In this document: positions 22,630 to 33,413 of the stretch, piece after piece
Layout of the letters: each line of letters starts with the position of its first letter
How positions within the stretch are numbered: position 1 is the stretch's first letter
Source: Robiginitomaculum sp.
Lineage (GTDB): Bacteria > Pseudomonadota > Alphaproteobacteria > Caulobacterales > Maricaulaceae
Length of the DNA stretch: 64,000 nt
Assembly (NCBI GenBank): GCA_015485155.1
Contig: WFUF01000016.1
Location: forward strand, 62,001-126,000
Reading direction: 5' to 3'
The notes under the pieces: generated by a model
Database searches by the model: none
Seen by the model: the letters and a program-made list of their open reading frames with translations, nothing else
Told to the model about the DNA's origin: nothing
Position numbers and translations under genes: made by a program

Positions 22630-22835
22630 ATAGGGAAAATCTTTTCTTGATTTCATCAAAATGATGGCAAAACGAAAGAAAAAACTATTTTTTTGCAGTT
22701 TTTATAAAATTAATGCTTGCATATGCAGATTATGGCTGTAGAGAAGCAAACAAGCAAAGCGTTGCCTATGCAACTCTTCAATGTGTATGGAGACAATTCG
22801 TGAATAAAGTCGCGAACAATAGTAAGATCACCGCC

Positions 22836-22937
22836 ATGGTCACCTCCCCAATGCTCACAAGGCATGTGTCTGTGCGCGCCCTCCTCATTCTAGTCAGCCT
22901 CATTATCGTCGTGCTTCCACCAGGAGCAGGCAACTAG
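22836..22937 (+). CDS. Leader peptide of the ilv-leu operon
   Basis: A 33-codon reading frame, or 28 codons if the second ATG at 22851 is used. It reads ...[20 protein letters not shown] and stops, so 14 of the last 28 codons are Leu, Val or Ile. The tail VVLPPGAGN resembles the enterobacterial ilvGMEDA leader, which has runs of Val and Ile followed by PPCGA. It is not a structural gene: ribosome stalling in the run should set the state of the downstream attenuator. An AGTAAGA lies upstream of the first ATG. A longer frame from 22713 exists but lacks coding character. Confidence 0.85.
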
Positions 22938-22998
22938 ATTAGCGCATATAAATGTACCGATCACCCGCCCGCTTCTCGAACAGAAGCGGGTTTTTTTT
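22878..22998 (+). promoter_or_regulatory. Transcription attenuator of the ilv-leu operon
   Basis: Four complementary segments can be read. Segment 1, GCCCTCCT (22878-22885), can pair with segment 2, AGGAGCAGGC (22922-22931), with a two-base bulge. Segment 2 can instead pair with segment 3, GCCCGCTTCT (22967-22976), in nine of ten positions including one G-U pair. Segments 3 and 4 form the terminator. Stalling at the Leu/Ile/Val codons (22881-22916) would free segment 2 and favour read-through. A ribosome reaching the stop at 22935 would cover segment 2 and favour termination. Confidence 0.8.
22968..22998 (+). terminator. Attenuator terminator ahead of ilvC
   Basis: CCCGCTTCT and AGAAGCGGG form a perfect 9-bp stem with a five-base loop, followed directly by eight T residues. 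It lies between the leader stop codon and the ilvC start at 23014, exactly where an attenuator terminator belongs. Confidence 0.93.
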
Positions 22999-23013
22999 GC
23001 AAGGAATAATTCA

Positions 23014-23988
23014 ATGACAACTACTGAAACAACAATCGCCATAATCGGTTATGGCAGTCAGGGCCGGGCCCACGCTCTGAACTTGCATGAAAGCGGCTTT
23101 GATGTGGTTGTTGGTGTCCGCGAAGACGGGCCCGGACATAAAAGGGCCACACAGGACGGCTTGCCTACTGCAAGCCCTGCCGATGCCGCAGCACAGGCAA
23201 GCCTGATAGCAATGCTCACCCCTGATCTTAGTCATCAGGAAATATTTCAAAACAGCATTGTCACAAACCTTTCGCCAAATGATGCATTATTGTTCGCACA
23301 CGGATTTACCGTTCACTATGGTCAGATAGAACCGCCGGCCATGGTTGATGTGGTTCTGGTTGCTCCCAAGGGGCCAGGTGATTTGGTGCGACGTGAATAT
23401 CAGCGTGGCCGGGGAGTGCCATGCCTGTTTGCGGTGCATCAGGATGCAACCGGTACAGCAGATGCCCGGGCACAGGCTTATGCGGCCGGTATCGGCGGCG
23501 CAAAAACCAAAGCCATCAAAACCAGTTTTGCCGAAGAAACCGAAACTGATCTGTTTGGTGAACAGGCCGTATTGTGCGGCGGAGTGACAGAACTGATCAC
23601 TGCCGGATTTGATACTCTGGTTGATGCCGGATACCAGCCGGAAGTTGCCTATTATGAATGTTTGCATGAATTAAAGCTGATTGTTGATCTGCTCTATGAG
23701 GGCGGATTGTCAAAAATGCATAAATATATTTCAGAAACAGCAATTTATGGCGACCTTACCGCCGGCCCTCATATTATCAATAATGAAACCCGCAATCGCA
23801 TGCGGGAAATATTGAGCCATATTCAAAAGGGTAATTTCGCCAAAGAGTGGATTTCGGAGAATCAGGCCGGAAAGCCAAAATACCAATCCCTGATGCAACA
23901 GGACATGGCTCACCCAATTGAACAGGTGGGCGCCCGTTTGCGTGCAGATATGGCATGGCTGAACACAAGCAAGCCCCTTGCCGAATAA
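23014..23988 (+). CDS. ilvC: Ketol-acid reductoisomerase
   Basis: A 324-residue class I enzyme. It converts acetolactate and acetohydroxybutyrate to the dihydroxy acids, using NADPH and Mg. Features seen: the Rossmann motif [17 protein letters not shown] at the extreme N-terminus, [17 protein letters not shown], and the metal-binding [16 protein letters not shown] with later [14 protein letters not shown]. The sequence begins almost directly with the Rossmann strand, lacking the leader of common alphaproteobacterial IlvC; this form resembles Xanthomonas-type proteins. AAGGA precedes the ATG. It is first in the operon, directly after the attenuator. Confidence 0.95.
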
Positions 23989-24024
23989 TTCTGATCTGGC
24001 CCAAAACAACCCGGTGAATTTATC

Positions 24025-25725
24025 ATGTCAGCCTCAAATCCTGATCAATTTGAAAATGAACGCACTGCCACCAGTTCGCAAACTGGTGCACAGCTTGTGG
24101 TTAAAGCCCTGCAGGATCAAGGGGTTGATCTGGTGTTTGGCTATCCTGGGGGTACCATTATGCCATTTTATGATGCCCTGCCCGGCTCATCATTAAGGCA
24201 TATTCTGGTGCGTCATGAACAAGCAGCAGCATTTGCTGCTGATGCCTATGCTCGCGCCACAGGCAAAGCCGGGGTTTGCATTGCAACTTCAGGCCCCGGC
24301 GCCACCAATTTATTGACCGGAATTGCCAATGCTTTTTTGGACTCGGTGCCAATGATCGCCATTACAGGTCAGGTGCCAACTGCAGTAATGGGTACAGACG
24401 CATTTCAGGAAATTGATATTTTTGGCATGGCCATGCCAGTGGTGAAACACAGCTTTTTAATCCGAAAAGCCGAAGATATACCGCACATCATCGCCAGAGC
24501 CTTTCAAATCGCAACATCAGGGCGACCTGGCCCGGTATTGATTGATCTGCCCAAGGATATTGCCCAAATGCAGGTGCCATCACCAGTTAAGGCCATTTTA
24601 CCCCCTGCCCCGACCCGGCAACCGGCCATGGCTGATATTTCTGATGCCATAGAATTACTAAAAACCGCAAAACAACCAGTGCTTTATATAGGTGGCGGAG
24701 TTGCCAAGTCCGGAGCCAGCAAGGCCTTGCGCTCCATGAACGAAATAGCCGGTATTCCAGCGGTGGCAACCTTGACCGGACTGGGGGTTCTGCCAACCGG
24801 ATCTGAGAATTTTTTTGGTATGCTCGGCATGCATGGCAGTAAGGCTGCCAATATCCTTGTGCAAAAATCAGATGTGCTGCTGGTGTGTGGCGCGCGCTTT
24901 GACGATAGGGCCACAGGCAAGCTGGACAGTTTTGCCGCCGGTGCCAGAGTTATCCATCTTGATTGTGATCCAGCAGAAATCAGCAAATTGCGTCATGTTG
25001 ATGTTGCTGTACCTGGTGCCTTGAAAGCGGCCATTGAACAATTAAAAGTACCAAAGCTGAACATTGAACCATGGCGTAAACAGGCAAAGGATTTGCGCAG
25101 GCAATTTGCCTTTGACTATAACGCCCCTGGAGCCGGTGTTTTTGCACCGGCCTTTTTAGAGAAACTTTCGCGCAGGGCTCCAAATAATTTTGTCGCCACA
25201 TGTGATGTGGGACAACATCAGATGTGGGTGGCACAGCATTGTAATTTCAACCGTCCTGAAGCCCACCTGACTTCCGGCGGTCTTGGAGCCATGGGCTACG
25301 GGATTCCGGCTGGCATTGGTGCAAAGCTGGGCAATCCCAAAGACTGTGTTGTCACCATAACCGGTGATGGCTCGATCATGATGAATATTCAGGAACTGGC
25401 CACTATACGGCGCTATGGCATCGGGTTGAAAATCGTCCTGTTTGACAATTCAGCATTGGGCCTGGTTCGCCAATGGCAGGAGCTGTTTTACGAACAGAAT
25501 TTTAGCGAAGTTGATCTGTATGACAATCCTGACTTCGCCAGTGTCGCCCGCGCATTTGGCATTGAAGCTTTTACGGTGTCCCGCCGGGAACAGGTCGATG
25601 GGGCAATTGAGAGATTACTAAAAACCGACGGCCCGGTTCTGGCTCATGTGCGTATTGATCCGCGTGAAAATGTCTGGCCGCTGGTTCCTCCGGGAAAATC
25701 CAACGCTGAAATGATGGAGCCTTAA
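24025..25725 (+). CDS. ilvG: Acetolactate synthase, catalytic subunit
   Basis: A 566-residue thiamine-diphosphate enzyme that condenses pyruvate with pyruvate or 2-oxobutyrate. Features seen: VFGYPGGTIMPFYDALP, the catalytic Glu in LVRHEQAAAFAADAYAR, GPGATNLLTGIANA, QEIDIFGMAMPVVKHSF and the ThDP/Mg motif from ITGDGSIMMN to FDNSALGLVRQWQ. I use ilvG because the partner small subunit is of the short IlvM type; ilvB or ilvI would be equivalent functional names. It lies 36 bases after ilvC. Confidence 0.93.
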   Translation: MSASNPDQFENERTATSSQTGAQLVVKALQDQGVDLVFGYPGGTIMPFYDALPGSSLRHILVRHEQAAAFAADAYARATGKAGVCIATSGPGATNLLTGIANAFLDSVPMIAITGQVPTAVMGTDAFQEIDIFGMAMPVVKHSFLIRKAEDIPHIIARAFQIATSGRPGPVLIDLPKDIAQMQVPSPVKAILPPAPTRQPAMADISDAIELLKTAKQPVLYIGGGVAKSGASKALRSMNEIAGIPAVATLTGLGVLPTGSENFFGMLGMHGSKAANILVQKSDVLLVCGARFDDRATGKLDSFAAGARVIHLDCDPAEISKLRHVDVAVPGALKAAIEQLKVPKLNIEPWRKQAKDLRRQFAFDYNAPGAGVFAPAFLEKLSRRAPNNFVATCDVGQHQMWVAQHCNFNRPEAHLTSGGLGAMGYGIPAGIGAKLGNPKDCVVTITGDGSIMMNIQELATIRRYGIGLKIVLFDNSALGLVRQWQELFYEQNFSEVDLYDNPDFASVARAFGIEAFTVSRREQVDGAIERLLKTDGPVLAHVRIDPRENVWPLVPPGKSNAEMMEP

Positions 25726-25726
25726 A

Positions 25727-25996
25727 ATGCAAACCCAAGTTCTGACTATAGAATTTTTCCCTGAAGAAGGCGCGATCATACGCCTGCTCGGTCTTGTGGA
25801 GCGCCGGGGCTATGAGGTCAAAACCATTAATCTTCCGCTTGCCAGCAAGAACAAGTCCAGCCTCGACATTGCAGTAATTGCCCGAGATGCGGGCAGGGAT
25901 ATCGGGGTGCTACAGCGCCAGATATCTCGTCTTATCGGAGTGCAGCGGGTGCTGACAAATATCAAAACCAATGAAACAGAGGCTCAAAATGTCTGA
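25727..25996 (+). CDS. ilvM: Acetolactate synthase small subunit, IlvM type
   Basis: An 89-residue single ACT-domain protein (LTIEFFPEEGAIIRLLGLVERRGY). The usual alphaproteobacterial IlvH/IlvN has two domains and roughly 160-190 residues; this matches the size and shape of enterobacterial IlvM, the partner of acetolactate synthase II. The E. coli enzyme of this type is insensitive to valine, which may hold here but is inference. The ATG is one base after the ilvG stop, and the 3' end overlaps leuA by eight bases, so translation is coupled on both sides. Confidence 0.88.
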   Translation: MQTQVLTIEFFPEEGAIIRLLGLVERRGYEVKTINLPLASKNKSSLDIAVIARDAGRDIGVLQRQISRLIGVQRVLTNIKTNETEAQNV

Positions 25997-27569
25997 ATCT
26001 GAAAATCAAAAAAACAGGATAGCCCTGTTTGATACAACCCTGCGCGATGGCGAGCAGGCCCCGGGGTTTTCCATGTCCTCAGAGGAAAAGCTGCTAATGG
26101 CCGGTTCCTTGCGCGATTTGGGGGTTGATGTAATCGAAGCAGGATTTGCCGCAGCCTCCAAAGACGACGCGCAGGCAATTCACCGCATCGCCCGGGAAAT
26201 TGACGGCCCAACAATTTGCAGCCTGTCACGGGCGACAAGCGGCGATATTCTATGTGCCGCCAAGGCTCTAAAACCTGCCCGCAAGAGCCGTATTCATATT
26301 TTTCTGGGCACCAGCCCAATTCATCGAGCAGCCAAGCTTAACATGAGTTGTTCGCAAGTTCTTGCCGCTATTGAACGCTCGGTGAAACTGGCTGCGGGGC
26401 AGTGCATGGAAGTGGAGTTTTCAGCCGAAGATGCCATCCGCACCGAGAGGGCATTTCTGGTTGAAGCTCTTGAATGTGCGGCCAAGGCAGGAGCGCGCAT
26501 ACTGAATGTTCCAGATACGGTTGGCTATACGACACCAGATGAAATCCATGATTTGTTTTCATTTCTGATTGCCAATGTCCGGGGTGCTGAACAGGCAATT
26601 TTCAGTACCCATTGCCATGATGATCTAGGCATGGCCGTAGCCAATTCAATTGCTGCGGTACGAGCCGGGGCCAGACAGGTGGAAGGCGCTATCAATGGCA
26701 TTGGTGAGCGAGCCGGCAATTGTGCACTGGAAGAAATTATGATGATCTTTGCCACGCGCGAGGATGTTCTGGAAGCCAAGACCAATGTGGATACGACTAA
26801 AATCCACGCAGCAAGTCAGATGCTTTGCAAGATAACCGGAAACCCGGTTCCAAGAAACAAGGCCATTGTCGGGCGTAATGCTTTTGCCCATGAAGCCGGT
26901 ATTCATCAGCACGGCGTACTTAATGATCGCAGAACTTATGAAATCATGACCCCCGAAGCCATTGGACTGCCGGGTAATGCCCTTATTTTGGGCAAGCACA
27001 GCGGCAAACATGCACTGGCAGCTCGGGCCAAAGAGCTTGGCTGTGAAATTGCCGAAAATGAATTGTCCAAGGTGTTTAGCGCGTTCAAAACTCTGGCCGA
27101 TGAAATTGGCGAAGTGGCGGATGCGCAACTGATTGATCTGATATTTGGAGAAACAGGAACCAACAGCCAGGTCTGGCAGCTAAAACGGGTAGAAATGCGC
27201 GCGGCCCATGGAACCAGCATCGAGCCATTTGCCCGCGTCGAGCTTGAACATCCGGCACGGGGGCTGGTTACAGACATTGCCACCGGTGAAGGCCCGATTC
27301 ACGCAGCTTTTAACGCCGTACAGCACATTACAGGCATTACCGCCACGGTAGAAGAGCTGACCATCAATCATGTGGGAAGCAAGGGACGAACTGATTGTAT
27401 TTCAGACATTGTGCTTAACATTGAAAATGAGAGCTTTGCCGGACGTTCGCGCACCCGTGACGTAATACCGGCCGGCGTTGAATCATATGTTGATGCCATC
27501 AACCGCGCCATAGCCCGGCAAGGTCGGGATGAATTTGGACAAGTAACAAGACAGCAAAGCGTGGCCTGA
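25989..27569 (+). CDS. leuA: 2-Isopropylmalate synthase
   Basis: A 526-residue enzyme for the first step of leucine synthesis, from acetyl-CoA and 2-oxoisovalerate. The N-terminal TIM barrel has FDTTLRDGEQAPGFSMS, the metal ligands in THCHDDLGMAVANS and GAINGIGERAGNCALEE. The C-terminal LeuA regulatory domain (leucine feedback) includes GTNSQVWQLKRVE and NHVGSKGRTDC. The length and motifs fit the E. coli-type LeuA. I start at the ATG at 25989, with GAGG just upstream, rather than the in-frame one at 25971 that lies inside ilvM. Confidence 0.95.
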   Translation: MSESENQKNRIALFDTTLRDGEQAPGFSMSSEEKLLMAGSLRDLGVDVIEAGFAAASKDDAQAIHRIAREIDGPTICSLSRATSGDILCAAKALKPARKSRIHIFLGTSPIHRAAKLNMSCSQVLAAIERSVKLAAGQCMEVEFSAEDAIRTERAFLVEALECAAKAGARILNVPDTVGYTTPDEIHDLFSFLIANVRGAEQAIFSTHCHDDLGMAVANSIAAVRAGARQVEGAINGIGERAGNCALEEIMMIFATREDVLEAKTNVDTTKIHAASQMLCKITGNPVPRNKAIVGRNAFAHEAGIHQHGVLNDRRTYEIMTPEAIGLPGNALILGKHSGKHALAARAKELGCEIAENELSKVFSAFKTLADEIGEVADAQLIDLIFGETGTNSQVWQLKRVEMRAAHGTSIEPFARVELEHPARGLVTDIATGEGPIHAAFNAVQHITGITATVEELTINHVGSKGRTDCISDIVLNIENESFAGRSRTRDVIPAGVESYVDAINRAIARQGRDEFGQVTRQQSVA

Positions 27570-27588
27570 CAGCCCCAAGGAGAAAATT

Positions 27589-28548
27589 ATGAGTATTTCA
27601 GAGGCAAAATTCATCTGGCAGGACGGGCGCATGATCCCGTGGGCGCAGGCTACCACCCATGTTCTTAGCCATGGCCTGCATTATGGCACTGCCATGTTTG
27701 AGGGCATACGGGTATATGACACTCATCAAGGCCCGTGCGGATTTAGGTTAAGCGAACATGTATTGCGGCTGTTTGCATCGGCCAAGATTTACGCAATGGA
27801 AATTCCATTTGAGCCTGAGGAACTTATTGAGGCATGTCTTGAACTTGTGCGCGCCAACGATCTTTTAAGCGCCTATTTACGGCCCATTGCATATTTTGGA
27901 TATGGGGATATTGGAGTTGCTCCTGGTACAAACACGCCGGTAAATGTTGCTATTGCTGCTTTTCCTTGGGGTGCGTATCTGGGTGAGGACGGGCGGAAAA
28001 ACGGAGTTGATGTCTGTGTTTCTTCATGGCGGCGGCCGGCTCCGGGAACCCTGCCGATGGCAGCCAAGGCCGCCGGTAATTATTTATCTGGCTTTTTAAT
28101 TTCACGGGAAGCAAAACGCAATGGATTTGCCGAAGGAATAGCTTTGGATATAGATGGGCGCCTATCCGAAGGCGCAGGAGAAAACCTGTTTATTGTCAAA
28201 GACAACACCCTTTTTACACCGCCTGCTTCCTCATCAATTTTAAGCGGGATCACTCGCGACACGGTAATGCAATTGGCTAAGAGGAACGGCCTTGCGGTTA
28301 ATGAGCAATCATTGCCCCGCGAAATGCTATATGTGGCAGATGAGTTGTTCTTCACTGGAACTGCTGCCGAGATCACCCCGATACGCTCGGTTGATGGAAG
28401 CCCCACCAGATCAAATGGCTGCGGCCCAATTACCAAAACCCTTCAGGATCAGTTCTTTGGGCTGTTTTCCGGAAGCACAAAAGATACCGAAGGCTGGTTG
28501 GAACCTGTTTATAAGGAGGACAATCATGTCAGCAAAATCGCTGTTTGA
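27589..28548 (+). CDS. ilvE: Branched-chain amino acid aminotransferase
   Basis: A 319-residue fold-type IV PLP enzyme that makes Leu, Ile and Val from their 2-oxo acids with glutamate. Recognisable parts: [29 protein letters not shown], the PLP lysine in [23 protein letters not shown]-like [19 protein letters not shown], and [20 protein letters not shown] lies upstream of the ATG. The last 23 bases overlap the leuC start, whose ribosome site is inside ilvE, so the two are coupled. Confidence 0.95.
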
Positions 28549-29941
28549 AAAAGTATGGGACAGCCATCTGGTTTGCGAGCAAACCGCAGAGCATCCGGCT
28601 ATTCTTTATATTGATAGGCATCTGGTTCATGAGGTTACCTCACCGCAAGCCTTTACCGAGTTAAGGCAAAGGGGGCTGAAATTACGGTGTCCGGAGCGAA
28701 CCTTTGCCACTATGGATCATTCAACACCCACCGTGCCGCTGGCCGCAGATGGCTCGCCGGTTTATGCCAGCGAAGCCAGCAGATTGCAGGTTCAGACCCT
28801 GCATGAAAATTGCCAGCAATTCGGTATTGAGCTTTTTGGCTGGGACAGTCCCAATCGGGGAGTTATTCATGTAATGGCACCCGAACTTGGCCTGACCCTG
28901 CCGGGCATGACCATTGTCTGTGGGGACAGTCATACTGCCACCCACGGGGCGTTTGGCGCTTTGGCCTTTGGCATTGGAACCACCGAAGTTGGCCATGTGC
29001 TGGCCACCCAATGCCTGTTACAGCACAAACCAAAATCAATGCTGGTCACGATTGATGGTAAATTGCCACCCAATGCCAGTGCCAAGGATATTGCGCTTAG
29101 CGTTATTGCAAAACTGGGCGCCAGCGGCGGAGTTGGTTATGTCATTGAATATGCAGGAGAAGCCGTGCGCTCACTTGATATGGAAGCTAGAATGACCCTG
29201 TGCAATATGACCATAGAAGCAGGTGCCCGTGCCGGCATGATTGCCCCTGATGAAGTTACATTTGCCTGGTTGCAAGGCAAAAAACATGCCCCTTCGGGAA
29301 TAAAATGGGAGCAGGCAATTAGCCAATGGCAAAAGCTGCGCAGCGATAAAGACGCAAAGTTTGACGCACAAATAACACTCAATGCCAGCTTAATAGAACC
29401 GATGATCACCTATGGCCCGTCACCGGATCTGGCAATGCCTGTAAGTGGAACAGTCCCAAAACCCATTGATGAGGTTGAACAACAGGGTCTTGATTATATG
29501 AATTTTTCATCTGATCAGCCGCTTCTTGGCCAAAGTGTAGACGTGGTCTTTATCGGTAGCTGCACCAATGGCCGCATTAGCGATCTGCGAGATGCTGCCC
29601 GTATTTTGCTGCGACACAAAATTCATCAGAGGGTAAGAATGCTGGTGGTTCCGGGATCTGAACAGGTAAGAAGACAGGCTGAAGATGAGGGGCTGGACGA
29701 AATATTCAAAAACGCAGGAGCCGAATGGAGACTGCCCGGATGCTCCATGTGCATTGCCATGAACGGTGATCAGGCCGAGGCCGGGCAATTGGTGGTTTCC
29801 ACCTCTAACCGAAACTTTGAAGGCAGGCAGGGAAAAGGCGCAAGAACTGTGCTTGCCTCTCCGGCAACAGCCGCCGCCTGTGCCATTTGGGGGCAGATAG
29901 CTGATCCCAGACCATTTATGGAGCTGCCCCATGTCGCATAA
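28526..29941 (+). CDS. leuC: 3-Isopropylmalate dehydratase large subunit
   Basis: A 471-residue aconitase-family subunit that isomerises isopropylmalate with LeuD. Iron-sulphur ligands appear in [15 protein letters not shown] and [41 protein letters not shown] and [19 protein letters not shown] are also typical. The ATG at 28526 has a strong AAGGAGGA. An upstream in-frame reading from 28292 lies inside ilvE and is not real. The stop overlaps the leuD start. Confidence 0.95.
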
Positions 29942-30512
29942 AAAATTCACCCGCCTGGTCTCCAAAACTGTGATACTGCCTCAGGAAAACATCGATACAG
30001 ATCAAATAATTCCAGCAAGGTTCCTAACCACAACCAGCCGGGGCGGTTTGGGCCGGGCTGCATTTTATGATTGGCGCTTTGATGCAGATGGACAAGCCAA
30101 AGCCACCAACCCATTTGCTAAATTTGAGCCTGAATCACATCAAATTCTGGTGGCGGGGGCTAATTTTGGCTGTGGCTCGTCCCGTGAACACGCGCCATGG
30201 GCCTTGTTTAATTACGGGTTCAGGGCCGTAATCAGCACTAAAATTGCAGATATATTCAAAAGCAATGCACTTAAAAACGGAATCGTTCCAATTGAAATTC
30301 CCGCACAGCGACACAATGATCTGATGGGCCGGGTTGCAGCAGAACTCATAATAGATTTGGAGCATTGCAAGATTGAGCTTCCCGGTCATTGGACGGAGAG
30401 TTTTTTAATCGACCCCTTTGGCAGGCGCTGCCTGCTTGATGGCGTTGATCCGCTGGATTTTTTGCAGGCCCGTGAAGCTGACATATCAAAATTTGAGGCC
30501 AGAGCACTATGA
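29931..30512 (+). CDS. leuD: 3-Isopropylmalate dehydratase small subunit
   Basis: A 193-residue swivel-domain partner of LeuC. Motifs seen: [54 protein letters not shown] and NGIVPIEI. The start overlaps leuC by eleven bases and the stop overlaps leuB by four (ATGA), so expression is tightly coupled. The length is slightly below the usual 200 residues. Confidence 0.95.
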
Positions 30513-31555
30513 GCTATCAAATTGCTGTTTTGCCCGGCGATGGTGTCGGGCCCGAAGTAAGCAATGCTGCAATGCAGGTTTTGGCCGCTTTGGCGCAAAA
30601 ATACGATATTGAACTAGAATGTCGTGAATATGTATTTGGCGGTGCCGCTATCGATGCCTGCAATAACCCCCTGCCCGATGTAACTCTAACGGCCTGCCAG
30701 CAGGCAGATGCAGTATTTCTTGGTGCTGTTGGTGGCCCGAAATGGGATGGCGGAGCCATGCGTCCCGAAGCGGGACTGCTGGATTTACGTCAAAAACTGG
30801 GCCTGTTTGCCAATTTGCGCCCGGTCAAGCTGCACCCGGCACTGGCTGAATATTCTCCGCTAAAAGCAGAGCGTATCAAGAATGTAGACATTTTGATTTT
30901 GCGCGAACTGACCGGCGGACTGTATTTTGGTGAAAAGCAACGAAAAAATAATCAGGCCAGTGATCTTTGCTCCTATTCCAAGTATGAAATTATCAGAATT
31001 GCCAAAGTGGCATTTGAGGCCGCCCGCAATCGAGGCCGTCATGTAACATCAATTGACAAGGCAAATGTATTGGAAACCAGCAGGTTATGGCGTGAAACTG
31101 TCTCCTGGCTACAGCAAAGCAGATACCCTGATATTGAACTGCGCCATGAACTGGTAGACTCAGCGGCCATGAAGATAATTACCGATCCACAAACTTATGA
31201 TGTGATACTTACAGAAAATCTGTTTGGGGACATATTAAGTGATGAGTGTTCGGTTTTAAGCGGCTCTATCGGGCTGCTCGGATCGGCTTCCCTTGGCGCC
31301 GGCAAACAAGGTTTGTACGAACCAATTCACGGCTCGGCTCCTGATATCGCCGGGCAGAATATCGCCAATCCGCTAGGTGCAATTGCCAGTGTCGCAATGT
31401 TACTGCGCCACAGCCTTAACCACCACAAGGCAGCCATGGCCCTTGATGATGCCATTAACAGGGTTATTAAAAGGGGTGTCCGGACAAGGGATATTGGCGG
31501 TGCGGCCTCATGCCAGGAAGTTGCCGACAAAATCATTCACACTATCAATAAATAA
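30509..31555 (+). CDS. leuB: 3-Isopropylmalate dehydrogenase
   Basis: A 348-residue NAD-dependent enzyme oxidising and decarboxylating 3-isopropylmalate. Motifs seen: VLPGDGVGPEVSNAA, GAVGGPKWD, LRELTGGLYFGEKQ, DKANVLETSRLWRE, ENLFGDILSDECSVLSGSIG and EPIHGSAPDIAGQNIANPLG. It is the last gene of the operon. The stop is only seven bases from the convergent ilvD stop, and no terminator hairpin fits between them, so transcripts from the two sides probably overlap. Confidence 0.95.
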   Translation: MSYQIAVLPGDGVGPEVSNAAMQVLAALAQKYDIELECREYVFGGAAIDACNNPLPDVTLTACQQADAVFLGAVGGPKWDGGAMRPEAGLLDLRQKLGLFANLRPVKLHPALAEYSPLKAERIKNVDILILRELTGGLYFGEKQRKNNQASDLCSYSKYEIIRIAKVAFEAARNRGRHVTSIDKANVLETSRLWRETVSWLQQSRYPDIELRHELVDSAAMKIITDPQTYDVILTENLFGDILSDECSVLSGSIGLLGSASLGAGKQGLYEPIHGSAPDIAGQNIANPLGAIASVAMLLRHSLNHHKAAMALDDAINRVIKRGVRTRDIGGAASCQEVADKIIHTINK

Positions 31556-31562
31556 AAGCCAC

Positions 31563-33413
31563 TTATTTGATCTGGGATAAATCGCGAACTGCCCCTTTGG
31601 ACGCATTACTGACCATAGAGGCATAGGCCCGCAAAGAAGTTGATATTTTTCTTGGCCTTGGGATTGCCGGTTGCCATGCTTCCTTTCCCAGATCATTCAT
31701 GGCTTCTCGGCGCGCATCCAGGATATCATCAGATACATTTAAGTGAATTGAACGGTTTGGAATATCAATTTGAATAATATCGCCCTCTTCAATCAGGCCG
31801 ATAAGACCACCCTCGGCAGCCTCAGGGGACACATGACCGATGGAAAGGCCAGATGTTCCTCCGGAGAACCTTCCATCGGTAATAAGCGCACAGCTTTTGC
31901 CCAGCCCCATTGCCTTCAAATATGAGGTTGGATACAGCATTTCCTGCATGCCGGGGCCGCCCTTTGGCCCTTCATAGCGGATAATGACAACATCACCACT
32001 TTGGATATCTTTGCCCAGGATGCGTTTTACGGCTTCTTCCTGACTTTCGCAGATTTTGGCCGGGCCGCAAAAAAACCATATGCTTTCGTCAACACCAGCA
32101 GTTTTTACCACACAGCCCTGTTCGGCAAGATTTCCCTTCAAAACCGCCAGACCACCATCAATGGTAAAGGCATGTTGCACCGAGCGAATAACCCCTGATT
32201 TGCGATCCTTATCCAATTGCGAATAGCGATTGCTCTGGCTAAATGCTGTTGTGGTGCGCCGACCACCGGGAGCAGCCAGATAAAATTCTTGAACCCTGGC
32301 ATCATCAGACCGTGAAATATCCCATGAATTGATCACTTCTTCCATGGTTTTACCCAAAACTGTTGGCGCATCACCATTAAGCAGGCCACCAGCCAGCAAC
32401 TGACCAAGAATCGCAAAAACGCCACCAGCCCGGTGCACATCTTCTATGTGAACATCCAAGGCTGCCGGAGCCACCTTGCAAAGACAGGGAATTTTTCTGG
32501 ATAAAGCATCCATATGCTCAAGCGTAAAATCAACTTTTGCCTCTTTGGCAATGGCTAAAAGATGCAAAATAGTATTGGTGGAGCCACCCATTGCAATATC
32601 AAGCGCCATGGCGTTTTCAAAAGCTGCAAAATTAGCAATACCCCGTGCAGAAGCAGTGCGATCTTCCTGCTTGTAAAACCGTTCGGTCAATTCAACAATT
32701 CGTCTGGCTGCCTGTAAAAACAGTTGTTTGCGGTCACTATGTGTTGCCAGCAAAGTACCATTTCCCGGTAAGGCCAGACCAAGGGCCTCGGCCAGACAAT
32801 TCATTGAATTAGCGGTAAACATGCCTGAACATGAACCACAGGTTGGGCAGGCATTTTGCTCTATCTCAGTAATTTGCGCATCTGAAACATCGGGATTTGC
32901 AGCCTGCACCATGGCATCAACCAGATCCAAAGCCTGCTCCTGCCCTTCCAGCACCACTTTGCCGGCCTCCATTGGCCCGCCGGTTACAAAAATCACCGGA
33001 ATATCAAGTCGCATGGCGGCCATCATCATGCCCGGAGTAATCTTGTCACAATTAGAGATGCAGATCATGGCATCAGCACAATGAGCATTGAGCATATATT
33101 CCACTGAATCGGCAATTAAGTCTCGTGATGGCAGGGAATACAACATTCCATCATGACCCATTGCAATGCCATCATCGACTGCAATTGTGTTGAACTCTTT
33201 TGCTATTGCCCCATTGGCTTCGATTTCACGGGCAACCATCTGCCCCAAATCTTTTAAGTGCACATGACCCGGTACAAATTGAGTAAAGGAATTTACAACG
33301 GCAATAATGGGTTTACCAAAATCCTCATCCCTCACCCCTGTTGCCCGCCACAGGCTGCGCGCACCAGCCATATTACGGCCATTAGTGGATGTATTAGAGC
33401 GATAAGGAATCAT
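31563..33413 (-). CDS. ilvD: Dihydroxy-acid dehydratase
   Basis: A 616-residue iron-sulphur dehydratase, the usual length, making the 2-oxo acids for Val and Ile. Motifs include [12 protein letters not shown], the cluster and Mg region [16 protein letters not shown] and [19 protein letters not shown], and [21 protein letters not shown]. It completes the branched-chain pathway but faces the main operon, so it is not under the same attenuator. I see no leader peptide in the 36 bases between it and vapC. Confidence 0.95.

Follow-up and report, generated by a model that had tools for sequence, protein, structure and literature searches.

A conserved leader with the features of a leucine-, isoleucine- and valine-responsive attenuator precedes the ilv-leu operon of Robiginitomaculum sp.

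What switches the branched-chain amino acid genes of Robiginitomaculum sp. on and off, and does the short stretch ahead of ilvC take part? We examined a window of 64,000 nucleotides (the whole stretch of DNA analysed here) from a genome of 2.39 Mb. NCBI taxonomy places Robiginitomaculum in the Maricaulales and holds this order apart from that of Caulobacter; in GTDB, both belong to the Caulobacterales. On its forward strand, the window carries an eight-gene operon, ilvC-ilvG-ilvM-leuA-ilvE-leuC-leuD-leuB (23014-31555), with gene names from NCBIfam and, for ilvM, from Pfam ACT_5. It opens with ilvC for ketol-acid reductoisomerase (23014-23988, above the NCBIfam cut-off), followed by ilvG for the catalytic subunit of acetolactate synthase 2 (24025-25725, above the cut-off of NF006524), an ilvM-like gene for an ACT-domain small subunit (25727-25996; ACT_5 above and NCBIfam IlvM below cut-off), leuA for 2-isopropylmalate synthase (25971-27569), ilvE for branched-chain transaminase (27589-28548), leuC and leuD for the large and small subunits of isopropylmalate dehydratase (28520-29941, its start chosen from the family match, and 29931-30512), and leuB for isopropylmalate dehydrogenase (30509-31555). 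An ilvD gene of another type, assigned by sequence identity comparisons and NCBIfam, lies convergent on the reverse strand (31563-33413), outside the attenuated transcript. The leader of interest sits between a putative promoter and ilvC. A preliminary description had taken it for a complete leucine/valine/isoleucine attenuator, and its core, that an ilv-leu operon of an alphaproteobacterium is attenuated through its leader, is upheld by a conserved leader, antiterminator and terminator and by strongly biased Leu codons.

For comparison, IlvC was searched in 61 genomes and matched in 54. We assembled 29 loci: 25 from genomes whose IlvC is full-length and at least 60% identical, and four from alphaproteobacterial contigs (L003, L005, L009, L025). 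L002, which duplicates G008, and G001, a partial match, were left out; 21 loci with ilvG ahead of ilvC lay outside the leader scan. All 29 alphaproteobacterial loci carry a leader open reading frame (ORF) rich in Leu, Ile and Val codons at the operon head. Three further genomes of the genus (G009, G014, G016) gave no ilvC match, and two of them, G014 and G016, are 92-93% complete; these organisms are possibly branched-chain auxotrophs, or contigs may be missing.

Where does the leader peptide begin? It had been described as 28-33 codons long with 14 Leu, Val or Ile codons. The codon richness stood: these residues take 15 of the 33 codons of the ORF 22836-22937 (14/28 counted from the second ATG), and nine of the ten codons at 22881-22910. 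The start and length did not. An in-frame ATG 28 to 34 codons ahead of the stop occurs in only 5/14 genus sequences, and starts at ATG 22836 or 22851 were rejected for this reason; in the closest relative (96% identity in IlvC), the leader frame survives a 12-nt deletion just behind ATG 22836. Because an in-frame GTG is kept in all 14 genus sequences, giving peptides of 41 to 48 codons, the leader gene most likely starts at GTG 22800, the predicted peptide then having 45 codons, 17 of them for Leu, Ile or Val, before the stop (22800-22937, forward strand). A Shine-Dalgarno-like GGAG (22789-22792) stands 7 nt before this GTG, and the same motif precedes the conserved GTG in 11/14 genus sequences, with another purine-rich sequence in the other three. 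A longer ORF of 74 codons from 22713 was rejected, as it begins inside the putative promoter and is interrupted by a TAA in the closest relative. This promoter, proposed from by-eye comparison within the genus, would comprise a -35 element CTTGCA (22716-22721), a 17-nt spacer and a -10 element TAGAGA (22739-22744), with transcription starting at about 22750. By eye, a CTTG/TTGC element at similar spacing from a TA-rich element is present in 11/14 genus sequences, whereas in the remaining three the sequence starts too late or aligns poorly; a scan for E. coli-type promoters did not include 22716-22744 among its predictions. Among the relatives, the N-terminal part of the leader varies in sequence and length, while its last part is similar.

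Downstream of the peptide gene lies an intrinsic terminator with a 5-nt loop (22967-22998, forward strand). A 9-bp stem with a T8 tract had been reported here; terminator prediction confirmed it and added a closing G-U, giving ten pairs, nine of them Watson-Crick, at 22967-22991 and the T8 at 22991-22998. The terminator was detected automatically in 27/29 loci and placed by hand in L009, which has no proper T run, and L120; its pairing is kept in 88.6% of cells. The proposed antiterminator likewise held up. Its 5′ strand, segment 2 (22922-22931), is contained in the peptide gene as GGA GCA GGC and pairs with segment 3 (22967-22976), the strand common to antiterminator and terminator, at nine of ten positions (one G-U), leaving one A-C mismatch. 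Tested against dinucleotide shuffles, the segment 2:3 duplex gave p = 0.01 in the window and p <= 0.05 in 22/29 alphaproteobacterial leaders, and its cells are paired to 85.7% over the 14 genus sequences and 84.1% over the 29 loci, compared with 47-67% and 47-59% in slid controls.

Covariation in relatives gave a divided answer. Within the genus, two-sided changes in the antiterminator did not exceed shuffles (455/500 reach that number); over 29 sequences, 13 cells with two-sided changes exceeded all 500 shuffles, in a control that ignores kinship, and a control slid by -1 also yielded 13. The strongest sign came from between groups, where alphaproteobacterial strands such as GGAGCGG/CCGCTCC stand against GGTGCGG/CCGCACC in Gammaproteobacteria. 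Swapping strands between the two costs 9.8 kcal/mol on average for the sum of both duplexes, with an unfavourable outcome in 89% of combinations, and in 38/48 loci the native strands outperform the average of the exchanged ones. Within the gammaproteobacterial loci, own strands were no better than exchanged ones (-24.1 vs -23.8 kcal/mol), and in 5/16 of these loci the duplex failed to beat shuffles at p <= 0.05. Judged from these alignments, the antiterminator appears to exclude the terminator and to be preserved by selection, with covariation mainly between distant groups.

The same pairing bears on the end of the peptide, PPGAGN, which had been singled out as an enterobacterial-like tail. 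It is better explained by the RNA, because GGA GCA GGC is the antiterminator strand and, in many gammaproteobacterial loci, its counterpart GGTGCGG (read as RCG) differs together with the terminator arm. The likeness of leader-peptide tails across classes thus suggests an origin in an RNA pairing constraint.

An attenuator of the classical kind also has a protector that occupies segment 2, and here the preliminary description had paired 22878-22885 with 22922-22931. Seven such pairs can be drawn, and their mean probability reaches 0.93 in the full-length RNA with the ribosome at 22905 or 22908; it is 0.02-0.03 without a ribosome, and across the genus 72% of cells pair, compared with 24-61% in slid controls and 95.9% in a neighbouring hairpin. 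As the main 1:2 helix, this pairing was rejected for its weak ribosome-free probability and lower conservation. Genus pairing instead suggests a short hairpin adjoining and overlapping segment 2 as the better conserved protector, or else as a pause hairpin; in the window, it is GCTTC (22913-22917) with GGAGC (22923-22927). It is the counterpart of this hairpin that pairs in 95.9% of cells over the 14 genus sequences, with 38-67% in slid controls, and C-G to U-A two-sided changes occur in three sequences, two of them the window and its congener G006. This pair has lost two of seven hairpin pairs in the genus register and has a 5-pair helix one step over instead. Tested against shuffles, the short hairpin reached p <= 0.05 in 13/29 loci (p = 0.087 in the window). 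Until segment 3 has been transcribed, segment 2 is largely paired in 29/29 loci; at equilibrium, the majority favour the antiterminator. A longer protector specific to the window (22871-22948; z -2.2, 3/200 shuffles as good) was rejected, since the closest relative has a substitution in one strand and, by eye, the helix is absent from other congeners. The full classical set of parts therefore needs correction in two places, with the peptide start probably misplaced and the better conserved protector elsewhere. A further hairpin, variable in sequence and similar in place, occurs between the start and the control codons, 85-126 nt before the leader end; its z is -1.8 or lower in 19/29 leaders and -1.4, not significant, in the window, and it is possibly a pause site for RNA polymerase.

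If ribosomes read this leader as a sensor, the choice among synonymous codons could carry a mark of it. Leaders avoid CTG (9-12%), the commonest Leu codon of the operon genes (43-52%). In its place, the window and G006 favour CTC (55% in leaders vs 3% in operon genes, with CTG 9% vs 43%), the rest of the genus CTA (30% vs 3%; CTG 11% vs 46%) and the other loci CTT (40% vs 12%; CTG 12% vs 52%). The bias has p = 2.8e-13, 2.9e-42 and 5.5e-21 in these three groups, values that overstate it because related sequences were pooled and the window pair contributes just 11 Leu codons. Val codons in leaders also differ from those in operon genes; for Ile codons, a clear difference is confined to the other loci, and neither the window pair (p = 0.52) nor the remaining genus members (p = 0.10) show significant bias. 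Part of the bias, CTC above all, may be structural, because leader codons also serve as pairing strands. Theory (PMC1183508) holds that the codons used for control have the greatest sensitivity to supply, CUA in the case of Leu.

We folded the transcript with and without a ribosome, assuming a footprint of 18 nt upstream and 12 nt downstream of the A site, a given transcript start and equilibrium folding of truncated RNA. In this model, a stalled ribosome frees segment 2 over a control region spanning 22878-22910 on the forward strand (GCC CTC CTC ATT CTA GTC AGC CTC ATT ATC GTC). Before segment 4 is made, the antiterminator has a probability of 0.88-0.98 with the A site at 22878-22908 and 0.68 at 22911, dropping to 0.21 at 22914 and 0.00 from 22917 to the stop. 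Across the 29 loci modelled, the antiterminator exceeds 0.5 on stalling in 25 and stays below 0.1 with the ribosome at the stop in 25; a switch, defined as a difference above 0.5 between the two, was obtained in 22 and not in 7. Two loci, L123 and L005, have segment 2 too far from the stop for a ribosome there to cover it. The stall-dependent antiterminator thus emerged in truncated RNA, while ribosome-free folding gave no general off state: the antiterminator falls below 0.5 in only 6/29 loci, with probabilities of 0.17-0.32 in the window and 0.93 in the closest relative. Because most relatives fold the antiterminator without a ribosome, thermodynamics does not account for basal termination. 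With the transcript at full length, the terminator prevailed in all of the ribosome states modelled, so the switch would have to be kinetic.

On these grounds, the element very likely acts by ribosome-mediated transcription attenuation with multivalent sensing of Leu, Ile and Val. RNA polymerase would start near 22750 and a ribosome at GTG 22800. With all three charged tRNAs plentiful, the ribosome would reach the stop at 22935 and cover segment 2 (22922-22931), whereupon the terminator at 22967-22991 would form and transcription would end in the T8 before ilvC. With Leu, Ile or Val short, it would stall with its A site at about 22878-22910, covering at most the 5′ arm of the short protector hairpin and leaving segment 2 free. 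Segment 2 could then pair with segment 3 as the latter emerges, blocking the terminator and allowing the eight-gene ilv-leu operon to be transcribed.

How far does this element extend? We built a covariance model from the 29 leaders, which matched 141/299 genomes of the order at E <= 0.001 and 2/385 genomes drawn from the class at E <= 1e-5, including the window's own; as the cut-offs differ, the two tallies are not strictly comparable. In the window, an Rfam search at gathering scores returned no match, and in 22700-23014 up to E = 5 it found only two sRNA families, the best at 12.5 bits, and no amino acid leader. Of 20 further regions chosen by hand, 19 held a match and L183 gave none. Ten matches precede ilvD together with ilvC or ilvG, one leuA-ilvE, three threonine dehydratase (one named by library search, two likened by eye), one thrA-thrB-thrC and four a small ORF, so that 15/19 stand before branched-chain or threonine genes. 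The leaders ahead of threonine dehydratase genes (L174, L175, L176) come from another genus of the family. In a congener, a Thr/Ile-rich leader with a terminator (L184, G017:C19, 4230-4364, minus strand) precedes genes for an aspartokinase-homoserine dehydrogenase fusion, a GHMP-type kinase that is likely homoserine kinase, and threonine synthase. The four leaders ahead of a small ORF (L167, L169, L181, L182) belong to one family and, by eye, contain Thr, Ile, Leu or Met codons; the ORF of L169 shows a sub-threshold Pfam similarity to SDH_beta (23 bits against a cut-off of 26), its counterparts in the other three were matched to it by eye, and L169 and L181 have a further small ORF. A search of the window's own genome with thrA of a congener and ilvA of another genus returned partial or weak homologues only.

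Other explanations of the leader were weighed against attenuation. The peptide might be a small hydrophobic protein with a function of its own, possibly in trans, its transcript ended by the terminator and the operon served by a promoter further downstream. It is indeed hydrophobic, relatives resemble one another in its last part, and there is a precedent in the Sinorhizobium leader peptide peTrpL, which is described as acting in trans (PMC7298713). However, the N-terminal part varies, the conserved tail coincides with a pairing strand and the synonymous Leu codons are strongly non-random; in addition, the T8 tract lies only 15 nt from the ilvC start, which leaves little room for a promoter. 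We regard this account as very unlikely. A similarly low probability attaches to regulation that bypasses stalling at starved codons, be it through general coupling of transcription and translation or through action of a metabolite or a sensor protein on the leader RNA. The extra hairpin upstream of the control codons and the inconsistency of the ribosome-free folds would suit such control, yet the Leu/Ile/Val run keeps a similar distance from segment 2 across relatives, Leu codons are biased in all three groups, and the thrA-thrB-thrC leader matched by the same model has many Thr and Ile codons.

Finally, a fixed terminator might adjoin a chance ORF and regulate nothing. Terminators are common between genes, but against chance stands a scan of both strands for a short ORF with at least nine Leu, Ile or Val in 12 codons and a terminator within about 75 nt: it returned one element in the 64-kb window and none in 40 Markov-simulated 64-kb sequences (one and one, respectively, at a looser cut-off of eight in 12). 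With 141/299 genomes of the order matched by the model and branched-chain or threonine genes behind 15 of the 19 inspected matches, this explanation is the least credible of all. The leader is real and beyond chance.

Attenuation of the operon as the preferred reading raises the matter of which gene the leader serves. Its head gene is ilvD in 24/29 loci and ilvC in five (the window, G006, G030, G031 and Oceanicaulis). In an IlvC tree, rooted for drawing only, the 29 alphaproteobacterial sequences form one clade (99/98) beside four Xanthomonadales-like IlvC (join 94/81), and the window and G006 are nested within the genus on a long branch; the ilvC-first order is therefore probably derived. The window's convergent ilvD shares about 35-41% identity with the operon-head ilvD of congeners and 69-73% with ilvD in five genomes of the order that belong to other families. 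Of the remaining genus members searched, G006 alone has a close match to the window-type ilvD (98%, a fragment at a contig end), and the scan of the window found no attenuator for this gene. In the window lineage, the convergent gene has probably taken the place of the ilvD at the operon head. The simplest account would be displacement of the head gene with the attenuator staying in place, a direction and mechanism that we infer.

More tentatively, since it might as easily fail as hold, we propose that an uncurated RNA family of mobile attenuators runs a branched-chain and threonine regulon in the order, with copies before ilvD-ilvC-ilvG, leuA-ilvE, ilvA and thrA-thrB-thrC and codons that fit each operon. 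The short hairpin would set the sensing window at genus-invariant ATT-ATY-GT codons, in a geometry unlike the enterobacterial one, and in the window lineage the target would have passed from ilvD to ilvC as ilvD was displaced. If this is true, dihydroxy-acid dehydratase would be left outside attenuator control in that lineage.

The attenuators of the E. coli ilvGMEDA and leu operons have runs of control codons, an antiterminator that overlaps a terminator arm, and avoidance of the major Leu codon; the leu leader uses CUA control codons. The window's leader is like them in all three respects. It differs in that its antiterminator strand lies inside the peptide gene and a short hairpin adjoining that strand is its best conserved protector. 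Leaders of ilvC-leuA type operons in Steroidobacter-like Gammaproteobacteria share the operon-head position, the segment 2:3 logic and often GGTGCGG with CCGCACC, but their peptides and strands differ, and the 29 alphaproteobacterial IlvC form a clade beside the Xanthomonadales IlvC.

Nearer in kinship, attenuation of Caulobacter crescentus ilvBN is described, citing Tarleton 1994, in PMC4117421. There, acetolactate synthase genes of a related alphaproteobacterium are preceded by a leader in which Ile and Val codons stand in tandem and by a rho-independent terminator; that leader precedes ilvBN/ilvIH, whereas the window's precedes ilvC (ilvD in relatives) of an ilv(D)CGM-leuA-ilvE-leuCDB operon. 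An alphaproteobacterial ilvB leader peptide from Vitreschak 2004 is mentioned in PMC1273637, and both studies may cover related operons. These reports take away from the novelty claimed for the lineage. Among the titles and abstract openings that our literature search covered, none dealt with this element in the Maricaulales.

The mechanism is thus an ordinary one, and the locus is a well-supported further instance of it without an Rfam match. It adds an attenuator family to a lineage in which the Caulobacter ilv leader and the alphaproteobacterial ilvB leader are the nearest reports in the literature surveyed. It also offers a natural case of an attenuator kept at the operon head while the first gene beneath it was probably replaced, and the element can be used to predict starvation-responsive amino acid operons in uncultured members of the order.
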